From Clostridiales bacterium (GTDB taxonomy: Bacteria; Bacillota; Clostridia; Christensenellales; JAISNN01): a DNA stretch of 38,534 nucleotides. The position numbers and the translations under genes are program-made. Location: assembly GCA_031276195.1 (NCBI GenBank), contig JAISNN010000076.1, positions 1 through 38,534 of the forward strand, given 5' to 3'. Below the pieces are notes generated by a model. That model did no database searches and was not told the origin of the DNA. It saw only the letters and a program-made list of their open reading frames with translations. Below are positions 6,603-34,864 of this stretch, piece after piece (the stretch's first letter is position 1; each line of letters begins with the position of its first letter).

Positions 6603-6678
6603 TTAACAAAACACCTCCGATTGTTCTTAAAACCCGTATTTAACGTTCTAAATAAAATCCGAAAAATCCGTGTTTTTT

Positions 6679-6845
6679 CGCGGTACAGAACCGCGTTTTT
6701 TGCTATATCAAGTATTATAAAATTTGTCTTTTTTTCGCGGTACAGAACCGCGTTTTTTCTTAATATCAAGTATTATAAAATTTGCCTTATTTTTGCGTCG
6801 TTCTGTATTATAAAATTTGTCTTTTTTTCGCGGTATAGAACCGCG
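6679..6845. repeat. Three palindromic elements inside the ABC operon
   Basis: Near-identical 17-bp palindromes of type CGCGGTACAGAACCGCG lie at 6679-6695, 6736-6752 and 6829-6845. Each is embedded in a longer repeated unit containing TATTATAAAATTTG. Poly-T flanks occur on the plus strand. Read on that strand each looks like an intrinsic terminator, but the genes here are on the minus strand, so the sense RNA carries A-tracts instead. This fills most of the gap 6603-6907; no gene is present. Confidence 0.9.
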
Positions 6846-6907
6846 TTTTTTCTTATATCAAGTATTATAAAAATTTGCCTTATTTTCACAAAACTACAAA
6901 AAACTTT

Positions 6908-7636: not shown

Positions 7637-7680
7637 ACCCATTCTCCTTGATATTTTTTGATAACCGTATAACGATTTTT

Positions 7681-7829
7681 CGCGGTATAGTACCGCGTTT
7701 TTTTCAATGATATTGATTTTTTTATAACTGCATACATCGATTTTTCGCGGTATAGTACCGCGTTTTTTTTCAATGGTATTGATTTTTTTTATAACTGTAT
7801 ACATCGATTTTTCGCGGTATAGTACCGCG
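7681..7829. repeat. Three CGCGGTATAGTACCGCG palindromes upstream of the ATPase gene
   Basis: Exact copies at 7681-7697, 7746-7762 and 7813-7829 (spacing 65 and 67 bp), each followed by TTTTTT on the plus strand. The intervening sequence, including ATAACTG/TATACATCGATT, is repeated too. They occupy the leader of the ABC operon on the sense strand. Confidence 0.95.
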
Positions 7830-7924
7830 TTTTTTAATAGGTTTTAACGGCGCGTATCCCGTCTTTTTTTATAAAATTTTAAGCCGCTTTTACGCTTTTT
7901 AAACCGCTAATATATTCCGTTTTT

Positions 7925-16993: not shown

Positions 16994-17035
16994 AGACTTG
17001 CTCTATCATTTACGCGCTAAAAAATGTAAAATCTC

Positions 17036-17300
17036 AACGCGAAAAAAACGCCCAACCTTAATATACAAAAAAGCATACAACGCAATAAGAGCGAAAAAAC
17101 GCAAAGTCTTAACGCGAAAAAAACGCCCAACCTTAATATGGAAAAAAGCATACAACCGCAATAAGAGCGAAAAAACGCAAAGTCTTAACGCGAAAAAAAC
17201 GCCCAATCTTAATATAAAAAAAGCATACAACCGCAATAAGAGCAAAAAAATACCGAATCTTAACGCGAAAAAACGCCTAATACCGATATATAAAAACGTC
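17036..17300. repeat. 75-bp tandem repeat in the ECF gene leader
   Basis: Units beginning AACGCGAAAAAAACGCCC lie at 17036, 17111, 17187 and 17262 (period 75-76 bp; about 3.5 copies). An open frame of about 100 very lysine-rich codons runs through the array. Its start is at the predicted transcription start and it has no ribosome binding site, so I treat it as leader RNA rather than a gene. Confidence 0.9.
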
Positions 17301-28331: not shown

Positions 28332-28385
28332 AGTGTCGTCTCCTTTTTAAAAAAACTGTTTTTTTAAGTTTTTACCCTTTCTCTT

Positions 28386-28960
28386 TTTTGTTTTTTACGT
28401 ATTATTTTTGCTTTTTGCATACTATTTTTTCGTTTTTTCGGTATTGATTTTTATATTTTTTCGGCGTTATTTCTTGATTTTTTAGCGTTAATTCTTTCGC
28501 TTTTTAGCATTGTTTTTCTTACTTTTTGGCGTTAATTCTTTCGTTTTTTCGGCGTTATTTCTTGCTTTTTTAGCGTTATTTTTCTTACTTTTCAGCGTTA
28601 ATTCTTTCGTTTTTTTGGCATTATTTCTTACTTTTTGGCGTTAATTTTCTTGTTTTTTCGGCATTATTCATTACTTTTTAGCGTTGTTTTTCTCGCTTTT
28701 TAGCGTTAATTTTCTTGTTTTTTAGGCATTATTTCTTGCTTTTTCAGCGTTAATTCTTTCGTTTTTTAGCGTTATTTTTCTTACTTTTCAGCGTTAATTC
28801 TTTCGTTTTTTTGGCATTATTTCTTGCTTTTTAGCGTTGTTTTTCTTGCTTTTTAGCGTTAATTTTCTTGCTTTTTAGCGTTGTTTTTCTTGTTTTTTCG
28901 GTGTTATTTCTTTCGTTTTAAACCTTAATTTTTCATTTTTCGGTCTTGAATTTATTTCCT
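28386..28960. repeat. Array of more than twenty 20-22-bp T-rich repeats
   Basis: A degenerate unit of type TTTTTAGCGTTAATTCTTTC is repeated over about 570 bp. Higher-order repeats are visible: a block of about 65 bp near 28571 reappears near 28768. It lies between the thrS T-box terminator and the thrS start, so the sense RNA would carry a long A-rich repeat. No open reading frame or RNA gene is seen in it. Confidence 0.92.
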
Positions 28961-28985: not shown

Positions 28986-29290
28986 AAAAAAATCCCGTCC
29001 CAAAAAACACTTTTTAAGGACGAGAAAACTCCCGCGATTCCACCTTAATTACCCGAAAAAAACCATTTCCGGATCTCTCGATTTACGGCTTTAAAGCGTC
29101 AAGCGAAAAAAAATTTAATCCCCCGCGCCGTTTTTTTGCATATCTCATAAATGCAACGCGGCGCGTTTTTTTTAAGAAAAAAACTTTTCACGCAAATATT
29201 CCCGGCGGTACCATATAACCCCCCGTATATCCTTACACCAAACGGATACTCTCTTTATCAAGACCTCACGCGCACCCCGAATCCAAACGA
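28986..29290 (-). promoter_or_regulatory. T-box riboswitch controlling thrS
   Basis: On the minus strand the T-box sequence AAGGTGGAATCGCGGGAG at about 29046-29029 is followed by TTTTCTCGTCCTT, almost the same as known antiterminator elements. The competing terminator pairs CGTCC (29022-29018) with GGACG (29000-28996), followed by a T-run. Upstream, GTTTGGTGTAAGGATA near 29240 matches the apical part of stem I, and GGTACCGCC near 29210 offers an ACC (Thr) specifier followed by a purine. A large stem (CGCGCCG/CGGCGCG) near 29165-29120 fits stem III. Uncharged tRNA-Thr should allow read-through into thrS. Confidence 0.88.
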
Positions 29291-29298
29291 TATTCAAA

Positions 29299-29546: not shown

Positions 29547-30455
29547 TTAAAAAATATTTTCACTATCAAACCTCTCCTTTCCTAAATCCTCTTTCATCAA
29601 AACGACCGCTTTTCTCGCCGCTTCATAATATTTCAATTCGGGAAATTTTTTATGCGCGCAGATAATCCCGCGCGAATTGTTGACGACCGCGCCCAATCCC
29701 CGTTCGTCGAAAGACACCGAAAGATCGGCGGCAGAGCCGCCCTGCGCGCCGTATCCCGGGATCAAAAAAAACATATTCGCGTATGCCTTTCTGATCTTTC
29801 GCGCCTCCTCTTTTTGTGTTGCGCCGACGACCGCGCCGACCGAACTATACCCGTACTTCCCGACGAGATCCCTCCCCCAATTCTCAACGAAACCGCCGAC
29901 CAATTCATAGACCGTCCGCCCGTCTTTAAGGATTTGGTTTTGCAATTCAGACGAACTTTTGTTTGAGGTTTTGACGAGAATAAAGAGTCCTTTTTCGCGG
30001 CTTTTGCAGTCCGCTAAAAAAGGTTCTATACCGTCGCTTCCGAGGTACGGATTGACGGTCATAAAGTCGAAATCGTATGCCGGAATCCCTATGTCCGAAC
30101 AAGACAAATACGCCCTCGAATATGCCCCGGCGGTGCTGGCGATATCGTTTCGTTTTACGTCGGCGATAGTGATCAATCCGCGGCTTTTGGCATATTCGCG
30201 GGTTTTTTCGTAAGCCTCCATTCCGTGCGCGCCGTACATTTCATAATACGCCGCCTGCAATTTCACCGCGGGAATAAGATCCGCCGCCGCGTCGATAATG
30301 CTTTTGTTAAATTCAAAAATTACCCTCCCCGCATCCTTAAAATCCTTAATCTTAACCCTCAATTCCCCGGGCAGATAATCGGCGCAGGTGTCCAAACCCA
30401 AAGCGGTCGGATTTGATTTTTTCTTAATTTCATCGATCAATTTGTCTATAATCAT
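29547..30455 (-). CDS. pyrF: Orotidine 5'-phosphate decarboxylase
   Basis: A 302-residue protein of the longer bacterial OMPDC type, which makes UMP from OMP. Seen are ALGLDTCADYLP, the catalytic Asp-x-Lys motif IADVKRNDIASTA, TVNPYLGSDGIEPFL, the phosphate-binding LIPGYGAQGG and the final NNSRGI. AAGGA precedes the ATG. It is the last gene of pyrR-pyrB-pyrC-pyrF, with repeat-rich gaps of 220-350 bp between members. The next promoter downstream is that of thrS. Confidence 0.96.
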   Translation of the reverse strand: MIIDKLIDEIKKKSNPTALGLDTCADYLPGELRVKIKDFKDAGRVIFEFNKSIIDAAADLIPAVKLQAAYYEMYGAHGMEAYEKTREYAKSRGLITIADVKRNDIASTAGAYSRAYLSCSDIGIPAYDFDFMTVNPYLGSDGIEPFLADCKSREKGLFILVKTSNKSSSELQNQILKDGRTVYELVGGFVENWGRDLVGKYGYSSVGAVVGATQKEEARKIRKAYANMFFLIPGYGAQGGSAADLSVSFDERGLGAVVNNSRGIICAHKKFPELKYYEAARKAVVLMKEDLGKERFDSENIF

Positions 30456-30678: not shown

Positions 30679-31944
30679 TTAACTTTTCGCCTCGTATTTT
30701 ATCTTTCCGCCGATGATCGTATATCTCACCTCTCCGTAAACTTCCAAGCCGTCGAACGGCGAATTTTTGCCCTTGCTGACAAAATCCTTTACTGAAATTT
30801 TATACTTTTTATTCAAATCGACGACGGTCAAATCCGCCGCGTCCGCATATTCCGCATCCTTATCCAGCCCCAAAATTTTAGCGGGATTTTCGCTCATCAA
30901 TCTAACAAGCGTTATTATGTCTATACCGCCGTTTTTGACCAAAAAAGTATACGACAGCGCGAAGGCGGTTTCTAAGCCGCTGATACCGTTCGCGGCGTAG
31001 TTATACTCGACGGATTTATCGTTTTTGTGGTGCGGCGCGTGATCGGTAACGATAGCGTCCACCGTCCCGTCTTTTATCGCCTCGACGACCGCGAGCCTAT
31101 CCTCCTCCGACCTAAGGGGCGGGTTTACCTTTGTGTTCGTATCGAATGACAAAATGAGAGAATCGTTCGCGCAAAAGTAATGCGGACAGGTCTCGCACGT
31201 TACGGCGACCCTGCGTTTTTTTGCCCGGCGAATGATTTCAAGTCCGCTTTTCGTGCTGACGTGCGCTATATGAACTCTCGTATTCAAACTTTCGGCGAGC
31301 AACACGTCGCGCGCGATCATCGCGCTTTCCGCAACGGACGAAATGCCGCGAAGCCCGGCTATCGTCGCGTTATAGCCCTCGTTGACCACGCCGCCCGCCG
31401 CAATCGCCGTATCTTCCTCATGACAAATGAGCGGAATCTCCGCGGTTTTCGCGTATTCCAACGCAAGGCGCATAATGTTCCCGTCCGACACGGGGTATCC
31501 GTCGTCGCTTAACGCTATCGCGCCCGCCCTTTTTAACGCGAACATTTCGGTGATTTCGCCGCCCTTTTGCGCCTTTGTGATCGCGCCGATCGGATAGACG
31601 CGGCAGTTGTCCGCCTCCGCCGCGCGCGCCTTGATATAGGTTATGACGGCGGGATTGTCCGCCGCGGGTTTCGTGTTCGGCATACAGCATACGGCGGTGA
31701 AACCTCCCTTGACGGCGGCTTTCGTACCCGAAGCGATATCCTCCTTGTATTCAAAGCCGGGTTCTCTCAAATGGACGTGCATATCGACAAGCCCCCTCAT
31801 AACATAAAGCCCCGACGCGTCGATAATCCGATCCGCGCCGAAGCTCTTTTCCGGCTTTACGATCCGCCCGTTCTCAACGTAAACGTCCTCTTTTTGAACC
31901 GCGTTCCCCTTGACTACATTGCCGTTTTTTATAATTAAACGCAT
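30679..31944 (-). CDS. pyrC: Dihydroorotase
   Basis: A 421-residue amidohydrolase of the class I bacterial type, closing carbamoyl-aspartate to dihydroorotate. Zinc-binding DMHVHLREPGFEYKED, AVCCMPNTKPAADNP, the later VHIAHVSTKSGLEII, TCETCPHYF and VTDHAPHH are all present. The ATG at 31944 begins MRLIIKNGNV and has AAAGGGG; a start seven codons earlier overlaps that site and was rejected. It lies downstream of pyrB in the pyr operon. Confidence 0.96.
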   Translation of the reverse strand: MRLIIKNGNVVKGNAVQKEDVYVENGRIVKPEKSFGADRIIDASGLYVMRGLVDMHVHLREPGFEYKEDIASGTKAAVKGGFTAVCCMPNTKPAADNPAVITYIKARAAEADNCRVYPIGAITKAQKGGEITEMFALKRAGAIALSDDGYPVSDGNIMRLALEYAKTAEIPLICHEEDTAIAAGGVVNEGYNATIAGLRGISSVAESAMIARDVLLAESLNTRVHIAHVSTKSGLEIIRRAKKRRVAVTCETCPHYFCANDSLILSFDTNTKVNPPLRSEEDRLAVVEAIKDGTVDAIVTDHAPHHKNDKSVEYNYAANGISGLETAFALSYTFLVKNGGIDIITLVRLMSENPAKILGLDKDAEYADAADLTVVDLNKKYKISVKDFVSKGKNSPFDGLEVYGEVRYTIIGGKIKYEAKS

Positions 31945-31998
31945 ATTTTTTACCCCTTTTTCCATATCGCGCGATATAGCATATTATATAACATTTTT

Positions 31999-32015
31999 CG
32001 CGGTATAGTACCGCG
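31999..32015. repeat. Palindromic element between pyrB and pyrC
   Basis: An exact CGCGGTATAGTACCGCG followed by TTTTTT on the plus strand. The rest of the gap 31945-32269 has loosely repeated blocks of type CCGCGTTTTTT/CCGCATAAAACCGCG and no gene. Confidence 0.92.
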
Positions 32016-32269
32016 TTTTTTCGCATTCTTTCTCACGGCTTTTTTAACGGATTTTCAATCTTTATTCCTTATCGGAAAATCGTTTTTTCATTCCGCATCA
32101 AACCGGATTTTCATTTTGTTTTTTGGACGCAAAGTGTTTTTTTAGTTCCGCGTAAAGCCGCGTTTTTTATGTTTTTTATTTCAATTTTTTAAGCGGATTT
32201 TTACTCTTCATTGCTTAGCGGAGGGCATTTTTTTATTCCGCATAAAACCGCGTTTTTTTAGATTTTCCT

Positions 32270-33181
32270 TTAACTCCTGGTGAGCAAAAACAATACCGCC
32301 ATTCTCACCGCGACACCGTTCGTAACCTGCCTTTCTATAAAACTGTTTTTCGCGTCCGCGACATCCCCGTCGATCTCCACTCCGCGGTTGATAGGACCGG
32401 GGTGCAAAACCATAACGTCCTTATCCGCTCCCTTTAACCGTTTTTCGCTCAACCCGTAAAATTCGTTATACTCGCCGACGCTCGGAATCAAGCCCGAAGT
32501 CATACGTTCGAGTTGCAGCCTAAGCCCCATAACGACGTCCGCGCCTCTGACCGCTTCGTCGGCGTTTTTTTCGATTTTGAGATTTTTCACCGCAAGCCCT
32601 ATATCTTTCGGCATAAGCGTACCGGGCGCGCAAAGAGTGATCTCCGCACCCAATTTGCTCATCCCCCAAAGGTTGCTCCTCGCGACGCGGCTATGCTTTA
32701 CGTCGCCGATAATCGCGACCTTCAAGCCCTTCAAACTCCCCTTTTCCTCCGCTACGGTGAACATATCGAGAAGCGCCTGCGTCGGGTGTTCGTTCATACC
32801 GTCGCCGCCGTTTATAACGGACGCTTTGACGTTTTTCGCGAGAAAATGCGGCGCGCCCGAAACCTCGTGCCGAATGACGATAACGTCCGTCGCCAGCGCG
32901 TCGAGCGTCTTTCCCGTATCGATAAGAGTTTCGCCCTTACGGACGCTGGACTGCGCGACGGGAATGCTGCTGAGAACCGCCCCCATAAATTTCGCGGCGA
33001 TCTCGAAACTCGTTCTCGTCCGCGTACTGTTCTCGTAAAACAACGTGGCGACGCTCTTATTGCTCAAATGGTTGGTTTTTTTGACGTTGTTGACGAGTAT
33101 TTTTTTCATCTCGACGGCAGTCGTCAAAATGTTTTCGATTTCGTGCGCGTCAAGCCCGCGCAAGCCGAGTAGATCCTTCAT
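32270..33181 (-). CDS. pyrB: Aspartate carbamoyltransferase, catalytic chain
   Basis: A 303-residue protein that joins carbamoyl phosphate and aspartate. Carbamoyl-phosphate binding is shown by [12 protein letters not shown], followed by [26 protein letters not shown] and [13 protein letters not shown] are diagnostic for aspartate rather than ornithine transcarbamylase. No pyrI regulatory chain is next to it, so it is probably controlled at transcription by the leader upstream of pyrR. TGGAG precedes the ATG. Confidence 0.97.
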
Positions 33182-33415: not shown

Positions 33416-33449
33416 AATGGCGGTATATAATATAAGTTATATCTTTTTT

Positions 33450-33466
33450 CGCGGCGCTATACCGCG
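33450..33466. repeat. Palindromic element variant between pyrR and pyrB
   Basis: CGCGGCGCTATACCGCG has poly-T on both plus-strand sides. It is a diverged member of the family, with the centre in inverted order relative to the copies near 7700. Confidence 0.8.
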
Positions 33467-33530
33467 ATTTTTTAAACGTTTTTATCATTCAAAAAATATA
33501 ATATTAGTTATACTTCACCGCGATTTAATA

Positions 33531-34079
33531 TCACTTATTTTCGCCGCCGTCATACAACTCCACGCCGTCGCGTCCGTCGGTCTCCGTCAAATTCACGACG
33601 ACCTTTTCGCTCCTTGCCGTCGGCACGTTCTTTCCCGAATAGTCGGCGCGGATAGGCAATTCTCTATGCCCTCTGTCCGCGAGAACCGCCAACTGAATTT
33701 TTTGCGGTCTGCCGTATTCCATAATCGCGTCGATAGCCGCCCGAACCGTCCGCCCCGTGAACAGCACGTCGTCAACGATTATGACGGTTTTGTCGGCGAT
33801 GCTGAAATTTATTTCCGTACTGTTTATTACGGGGTGTTCGTTTATGATTCCAAGGTCGTCGCGATACAGCGTAATGTCCAAAATCCCGACCGCGACGCTC
33901 TCCCCGGACGCGCTCTTGATAAATCCGGCGATTCGCTTCGCGAGCGGAACGCCCCTCGTGCGAACGCCGATAAGCGCGACGGACGAAAGATTAAAATTTC
34001 TCTCGATAATCTCGTGCGCGATCCTTGCAAGCGCGCGGTCAATCCCGCCGCCGTCCATAATCTTTGCTTTTAAACGCAT
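33531..34079 (-). CDS. pyrR: PyrR: pyrimidine operon attenuator protein / uracil phosphoribosyltransferase
   Basis: A 182-residue protein of standard PyrR length. The PRPP-binding loop is [41 protein letters not shown] and [10 protein letters not shown] are typical. PyrR binds pyr leader RNA when UMP is abundant and promotes termination; many members also make UMP from uracil. The frame is open 46 codons further upstream, but that stretch translates repeats; the ATG at 34079 has GGGGAG and a family-like [17 protein letters not shown]. It is the first gene of the pyr operon, and an attenuator-like leader lies upstream at 34627-34751. Confidence 0.96.
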
Positions 34080-34103
34080 AAGTCTCCCCTTTTTCACCGA
34101 ATT

Positions 34104-34500
34104 TCCGTTCCAATTTGCATATAATCTCCGCTTATATGCGCCGTTTTTTATCCTTATATATAATCTCCGCTTATACTGCCGTTTTTTATCCTTATATAAT
34201 TTTCCGCTTAAATTCACGCTTCTTTTTATCTAATCTCTCGCTTAATTCCGCGCTTAATTCTTATCTAATATCCGCATAACTTCATAACTTCGCCGCTTAT
34301 TTTTTATGAATTGCCGTTTAAAATTTCACCGCTTATTTTTTATGAATTGCCGTTTAAAATTTCACCGCTTATTTTTTATGAATTGCCGTTTAAAATTTCA
34401 CCGCTTATTTTTTTATAAATTGCCGTCCAAAATTTCACCGCTTATTTTTTTATAAATTGCCGTCCAAAATTTCACCGCTTATTTTTTTTTACGAACCGCC
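34104..34500. repeat. Two tandem arrays (45 bp and 36 bp) in the pyrR leader
   Basis: Near 34115-34200 a 45-bp unit with ATATAATCTCCGCTTATA and CCGTTTTTTATCC occurs about twice. From 34293 a 36-37-bp unit beginning CCGCTTATTTTTTATGAATT repeats at 34293, 34329, 34365, 34401, 34438 and 34475. They lie between the attenuator and the pyrR start. Confidence 0.92.
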
Positions 34501-34626
34501 GCTTATTTCCACCGCTTATTTTTATACGATAAAATTTTCAATCCCGATCTACATTCACCGTTTTTTTCTTATCGGGCATAACCTTCCATAAAGCATTACC
34601 AAAAGTTAAAGATTCCCAAAAGTCGT

Positions 34627-34751
34627 AAAAAAAATCCGCCCGTAAAAAGGCGGCGAAAAAGCAAATCCAAAACAATACAAAACACTAAAAAACAAATCCA
34701 TACTACTCAAAAAAACGTCTTGCCGGTTTCGCCGCACCGTCCTTTAAAGAC
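34627..34751 (-). promoter_or_regulatory. Candidate PyrR-type attenuator
   Basis: On the minus strand a first hairpin has a lower stem GTCTT (34751-34747)/AAGAC (34721-34717), a one-sided bulge TAAAGGA and an upper stem CGGT/ACCG with loop GCGGCGAA (34735-34728). This layout resembles the PyrR binding loop, though the usual CNGNGAGG loop is absent. The loop is perfectly complementary (8 bp) to TTCGCCGC at 34657-34650, which includes the 5' arm of a terminator (CCGCC 34653-34649, GGCGG 34640-34636, then T8). This is an antiterminator/terminator switch. PyrR as the ligand is inferred from the gene that follows. Confidence 0.7.
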
Positions 34752-34762
34752 ACTTCGATAAT

Positions 34763-34791
34763 ATATTACCACCATATCGAAAAATAGTCAA
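34763..34791 (-). promoter_or_regulatory. Promoter of the pyr operon
   Basis: On the minus strand TTGACT (34791-34786) and TAATAT (34768-34763) are separated by 17 bp. The predicted start near 34756 puts the attenuator hairpin at the very 5' end of the transcript. Confidence 0.78.
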
Positions 34792-34864
34792 TGCTTTTTA
34801 TGCGGTCAATAAAAAACTCTCTCGCATTTTAAACTCTATCGATTAAAATTGCTATTCCATATTA

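Follow-up and report, generated by a model that had tools for sequence, protein, structure and literature searches.

A predicted PyrR attenuator upstream of pyrR in which the recognition loop may also serve as an antiterminator strand

The window, which is the whole stretch of 38,534 nucleotides analyzed here from an uncultured clostridial bacterium, carries a pyr gene cluster on the minus strand. A leader is followed by pyrR (ATG at 34079) and then by pyrB, pyrC and pyrF. The genes were assigned with the family models given in brackets.

33531..34079, minus strand: pyrR, attenuation protein / uracil phosphoribosyltransferase (NCBIfam equivalog model NF003549, 245.6 bits, cut-off 138)
32270..33181, minus strand: pyrB, aspartate carbamoyltransferase (NF002032)
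30679..31965, minus strand: pyrC, dihydroorotase (TIGR00857)
29547..30455, minus strand: pyrF, orotidine-5'-phosphate decarboxylase (TIGR02127)

Thus, the leader precedes pyr genes in a genome that encodes PyrR directly downstream of it, as for leaders of the RF00515 type. The solved structures 1UFR, 1A3C and 1NON are related to the pyrR product. Between pyrR and pyrB, a terminator-like hairpin of six pairs lies at 33449-33467; its run of T was detected on the plus strand. An antiterminated transcript would enter pyrR and would probably include pyrB, pyrC and pyrF as well.

The following elements were located in the leader.

34763..34791, minus strand: promoter-like site, with -35 TTGACT (34791-34786), a 17-nt spacer and -10 TAATAT (34768-34763), from a consensus scan
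34716..34753, minus strand: predicted PyrR-binding hairpin (anti-antiterminator), from covariance model R1 and the covariation of homologous hairpins
34729..34734, minus strand: hexaloop CGGCGA, the predicted PyrR recognition loop, a pattern match to CNGNGA with an identical hexaloop in the congener L010
34727..34735, minus strand: predicted antiterminator 5' strand GCGGCGAAA, comprising the hexaloop with one base 5' and two bases 3' of it, 9 pairs with 34658-34650
34719..34724, minus strand: GGCAAG of the hairpin 3' arm, which extends the antiterminator by 6 predicted pairs with UUUGCU (34665-34660) in minimum-energy folds
34650..34658, minus strand: predicted antiterminator 3' strand UUUCGCCGC, overlapping the terminator 5' arm, from complementarity
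34627..34653, minus strand: intrinsic terminator CCGCC...GGGCGG, stem 34653-34636 followed by A and U8 (T8), from a sequence scan
34289..34487, no strand: tandem array of a 36-37-bp unit (5.5 copies) in the presumed 5' UTR, unique in the genome, from a repeat scan
34119..34210, no strand: tandem array of a 38-39-bp unit (2.4 copies) in the presumed 5' UTR, from a repeat scan

The promoter, the bulged hairpin and the terminator with T8 of the original prediction were all recovered at these positions. As for the arrays of 36 and 45 bp that it had placed between the attenuator and the start codon, the first was confirmed with a unit of 36-37 bp. A 45-bp array was looked for between the terminator and the ATG and was not found; the second unit is 38-39 bp. 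The distance from the terminator to the ATG is about 547 nt in the window and 4-128 nt in 20 other leaders. The leaders of four congeners have no arrays, and their distance is about 16-107 nt. Tandem arrays make up 9.6% of the bases in a 158.5-kb sample of this genome (G000), compared with 0-1.8% in five congeners, from which less sequence was taken. In the sampled genome, 63 of the 79 arrays are located mainly outside long frames, and further arrays occur in the window, for example at 6673-6886, 17019-17277 and 28384-28933. We considered the arrays as a regulatory part and rejected this: the 36-bp array has no other occurrence in the genome, and arrays of other units are found genome-wide, mostly outside long frames. 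The arrays thus characterize this genome as a whole and do not belong to the switch.

The genome also carries a dispersed palindrome, TTTTCGCGGTAnnnTACCGCGTTTT, which is terminator-like in both directions and often forms tandem clusters (32 copies; 6675-6849, 7677-7833 and 31995-32019 in the window; none with a reversed-pattern control). The thrS leader, with which the original prediction had compared the pyr leader, matches the T-box model at 29013-29294 on the minus strand (57.6 bits, E 1.3e-11). This score is below the Rfam gathering score of 93, and therefore a default scan misses it.

The promoter-like site lies directly upstream of the hairpin, and the same arrangement is seen in the congener L012. 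Three such sites were found in the scan against 2.6 expected in shuffles. Since shuffled sequence yields them as often, the promoter call is one of position.

The hairpin consists of a lower stem (GUCUU/AAGAC), a purine-rich bulge on the 5' side (UUUAAAGGA), a short upper stem (CGGU/ACCG) and a G.A below the hexaloop. UUUAA is retained in the leader, and a U-rich spacer separates the hairpin from the terminator. The PyrR-binding RNA element of the pyr operon attenuators of Bacillus subtilis corresponds to Rfam RF00515 (PMC7430163, PMC6296669), and the published consensus of the PyrR site is ARUCCAGAGAGGYU (PMC7430163). The hallmark CNGNGAGG loop had been reported as missing from the leader. 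In fact, the CNGNGA loop is present as CGGCGA at 34734-34729, and only the next GG is replaced by AA. Where GG of the RF00515 type pairs with UC, the second A pairs with U and the first A is opposite G. The hexaloop is flanked by G and A, in place of C and G, and the bulge is two bases longer than that of the covariance model. The top pair below the loop is also non-standard in L009, L010, L012 and L016, and is A-U in others. Because this pair varies among relatives, GG after the loop is a consensus position that is not strictly defining in this order.

Leaders of relatives were collected via their PyrR. A homologous hairpin was detected upstream of pyrR in 20 relatives, of which four are congeners and 16 belong to other families of the order. 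In the congener L010, it is composed of UCUUUAAAAACGGUA, the loop CGGCGA and GACCGGCAAGAUA. Covariance model R1 was built from eight leaders of other families, with the congeners excluded. With this model, the window hairpin was the top match in the window (22.5 bits, E 0.0033). Compensating changes, the check proposed with the original prediction, were observed for the PyrR hairpin: 6 of 10 pairs were altered on both sides among the relatives, and none of 500 shuffles was as good. In the alignment, 93% of cells were paired; shuffles gave 83.5%, and sliding the partner gave no more than 53%. Under strict filters, the covariance model gave matches in at least 87 of the 297 genomes from the order and in at least 167 of 199 sampled across the phylum; these counts are lower bounds, since the screen missed the window's own site.

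RF00515 did not match the window leader even at E<=10, and the Rfam scan of the window returned no family relevant to the pyrR leader. On the relatives' leaders, the best RF00515 score was 53.3 bits, just below the cut-off of 54. Because every relative scanned scores under the gathering cut-off, RF00515 is narrow for this order.

A consensus pattern search of the genome matched this leader alone; the reversed control also gave one match. Matches of the covariance model on contig C35 were considered as a second PyrR site and rejected, being copies of the dispersed repeat CCTTTAATTCCCCTCCGTGGGAGGGG. A dispersed repeat containing TTCCCCTCCGTGGGAGGGG...GGGGTGGGGCG is present at 9-306 of the window and at 17337-17431 of C35 in G000, and some of its copies imitate the hairpin of the PyrR model. 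Upstream of pyrR in the congener L013 (G001), no PyrR hairpin was found, so that the attenuator is apparently absent from this congener. A TTGACA..TAGAAT-like promoter lies there shortly upstream of the ribosome site.

The PyrR family match, the covarying homologous hairpins and the independent covariance-model match give good support to the original idea of a perhaps divergent PyrR attenuator. The leader is very likely a PyrR-dependent transcription attenuator of pyrR.

Intrinsic terminators are present in all 21 leaders. That of the window, a stem of 6 pairs with about -10.3 kcal/mol, is the weakest among them. The pyrBI operon of enterobacteria has a leader-peptide attenuator, and the window resembles it in having a U-rich stretch and a frame that stays open across the terminator. 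A U-rich leader peptide of 31 codons (ATG near 34698, MDLFFSVLYCFGFAFSPPFYGRIFFTTFGNL) might accordingly be translated through the terminator, with UTP sensed by pauses of the polymerase at the U runs. However, a similar frame appeared in 40% of shuffles, no clear ribosome site precedes it and no homologous peptide was seen in the relatives. Moreover, the window has a PyrR-type hairpin, unlike the pyrBI attenuator. This model was dropped as very improbable, the frame being expected by chance and not conserved.

The loop complementarity of the original prediction is present. GCGGCGAAA (34735-34727) and UUUCGCCGC (34658-34650) form 9 contiguous Watson-Crick pairs, with a duplex energy of -16.0 kcal/mol. 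As in the RF00515 type, the sequence and predicted folds contain a downstream terminator, and the antiterminator shares bases with both hairpins. With shuffled arms, the probability of at least 9 contiguous pairs with the loop was 0.00085, and none of 20 non-cognate terminator arms from the relatives paired as well with the window loop.

The pairing differs in the relatives. Their loops offer at most 4 contiguous pairs to their own terminator arms, and the hairpin 3' arm is the better antiterminator partner in 18 of the 20; the exceptions are the congeners L010 and L012. The loop duplex of L010 (-9.2 kcal/mol) is equalled by 13 of 20 foreign arms and that of L012 (-6.8 kcal/mol) by 6 of 20. 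Since foreign arms match them, these two duplexes are not specific. We also surveyed 55 leaders retrieved with the covariance model, some of which share genomes with the first set of 20 relatives. The 3' arm was the better partner in 54 of them, and the loop duplexes had a best energy of -11.7, a mean of -6.4 and a standard deviation of 2.5 kcal/mol. The single exception, L078, has the same hexaloop CGGCGA with a loop-to-terminator pairing of -11.4 kcal/mol, and may be a milder case of loop pairing. Its PyrR hairpin precedes a dihydroorotase-like frame in the middle of a locus (minus strand) of another family. Since the relatives' loops pair weakly, strong loop pairing is specific to the window leader. 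Thus, pairing of the loop in the antiterminator, as originally proposed, holds in this genome; conservation of the complementarity, which had been named as the test of that proposal, is absent in the relatives.

Given these relatives, a working PyrR hairpin might pair with the terminator through its loop only incidentally, with antitermination by the 3' arm (GGCAAG/UUUGCU plus a weak CGGC-GCCG) as in the relatives. The preference for the 3' arm in both sets of leaders speaks for this, and some pairing is expected between a G-rich loop and C-rich terminator arms. In the window, however, the 3' arm pairs with the terminator arm at only -6.9 to -7.2 kcal/mol, which 13 of 20 foreign arms equal, and the loop duplex is far stronger and specific. 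In addition, the GGCAAG-UUUGCU pairing does not include the terminator stem and would not by itself block the terminator. We regard incidental pairing as unlikely.

The folds were compared with the terminator 3' arm barred or with hairpin plus terminator, as an equilibrium estimate with generic parameters. In the window, the antiterminated fold was better by 4.6 kcal/mol, the only such case in 21 leaders. In the other 20, hairpin plus terminator was favoured by 0.8-14.7 kcal/mol. Switches of this kind are decided during transcription, unlike such an estimate. The comparison suggests that the window leader may be a read-through-biased switch, or is partly decayed.

If the attenuator were decaying, pyrR would now be mostly transcribed through and the hairpin would be a relic. 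The weakest terminator and the only favoured read-through fold among the 21 leaders are consistent with this, as are the congener L013, the lack of an Rfam match and the repeat-rich stretch between the terminator and the ATG. However, CNGNGA, UUUAA, both stems and the T8 terminator are all retained, PyrR is intact, and decay would not be expected to yield a 9-bp antiterminator. Decay is thus improbable, even more so than incidental pairing.

We prefer PyrR attenuation with a shifted antiterminator, to which we assign a probability of roughly 0.7. The hairpin, the loop, the terminator, their complementarity and the PyrR gene are present in the sequence; from them, we infer PyrR binding, the response to UMP, termination in the cell and the extent of the transcript. 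When UMP and UTP are plentiful, PyrR-UMP would bind the emerging hairpin (34753-34716) via the CNGNGA loop and the bulge. With the loop sequestered by PyrR, the terminator (34653-34636) would form and transcription would stop ahead of pyrR. Under pyrimidine shortage, RNA without bound PyrR would refold so that GCGGCGAAA, made up of the loop and flanking bases, pairs with UUUCGCCGC, and UUUGCU, immediately upstream of the terminator, pairs with GGCAAG. The terminator 5' arm would then be masked, allowing read-through into pyrR and probably pyrBCF. The antiterminator 5' strand would thus have slid upstream to take in the recognition loop, in an otherwise ordinary logic of PyrR attenuation. With somewhat less confidence, we favour the more specific view that the recognition loop doubles as the antiterminator strand, so that binding and antitermination compete for the same nine bases and not via the 3' arm, in a switch biased to read-through. 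As the simplest account of its history, the terminator may have shifted downstream of the old antiterminator, and the pairing may then have grown into the loop.

These results suggest that the PyrR site of an attenuator can remain fixed in the hairpin as the antiterminator changes its position along it. They also show that a curated RNA model, RF00515, scores sub-threshold throughout a clostridial order. The leader offers a small, testable case of the evolution of a protein-controlled attenuator and leaves the known mechanism unchanged.

Among known leaders, the congeners L009 (= L038), L010, L011 and L012 from Clostridiales MAGs share with the window the position, UCUUUAAA, the CGGU upper stem, the CNGNGA loop and the terminator. 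The loop of L010 (CGGCGA) is identical to that of the window, and L012 has CGGAGC. The congeners possess A.G or A-U below the loop, whereas the window has G.A. In contrast to the window, they have no arrays, and no more than 4 contiguous bases of their loops pair with the terminator arm; even so, of the two poor partners in L010 and L012, the loop is the better one. The pyr attenuators of B. subtilis (RF00515) and the window leader have in common the position upstream of pyrR, the bulged hairpin, the CNGNGA loop, the competing antiterminator, the intrinsic terminator and a PyrR encoded downstream. The window differs from them in the change of GG after the loop to AA, the longer bulge, the involvement of the loop itself in the predicted antiterminator and the failure of RF00515 to match. 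The leader is a slightly divergent variant of known PyrR attenuation, and its unusual part is the register of the antiterminator.
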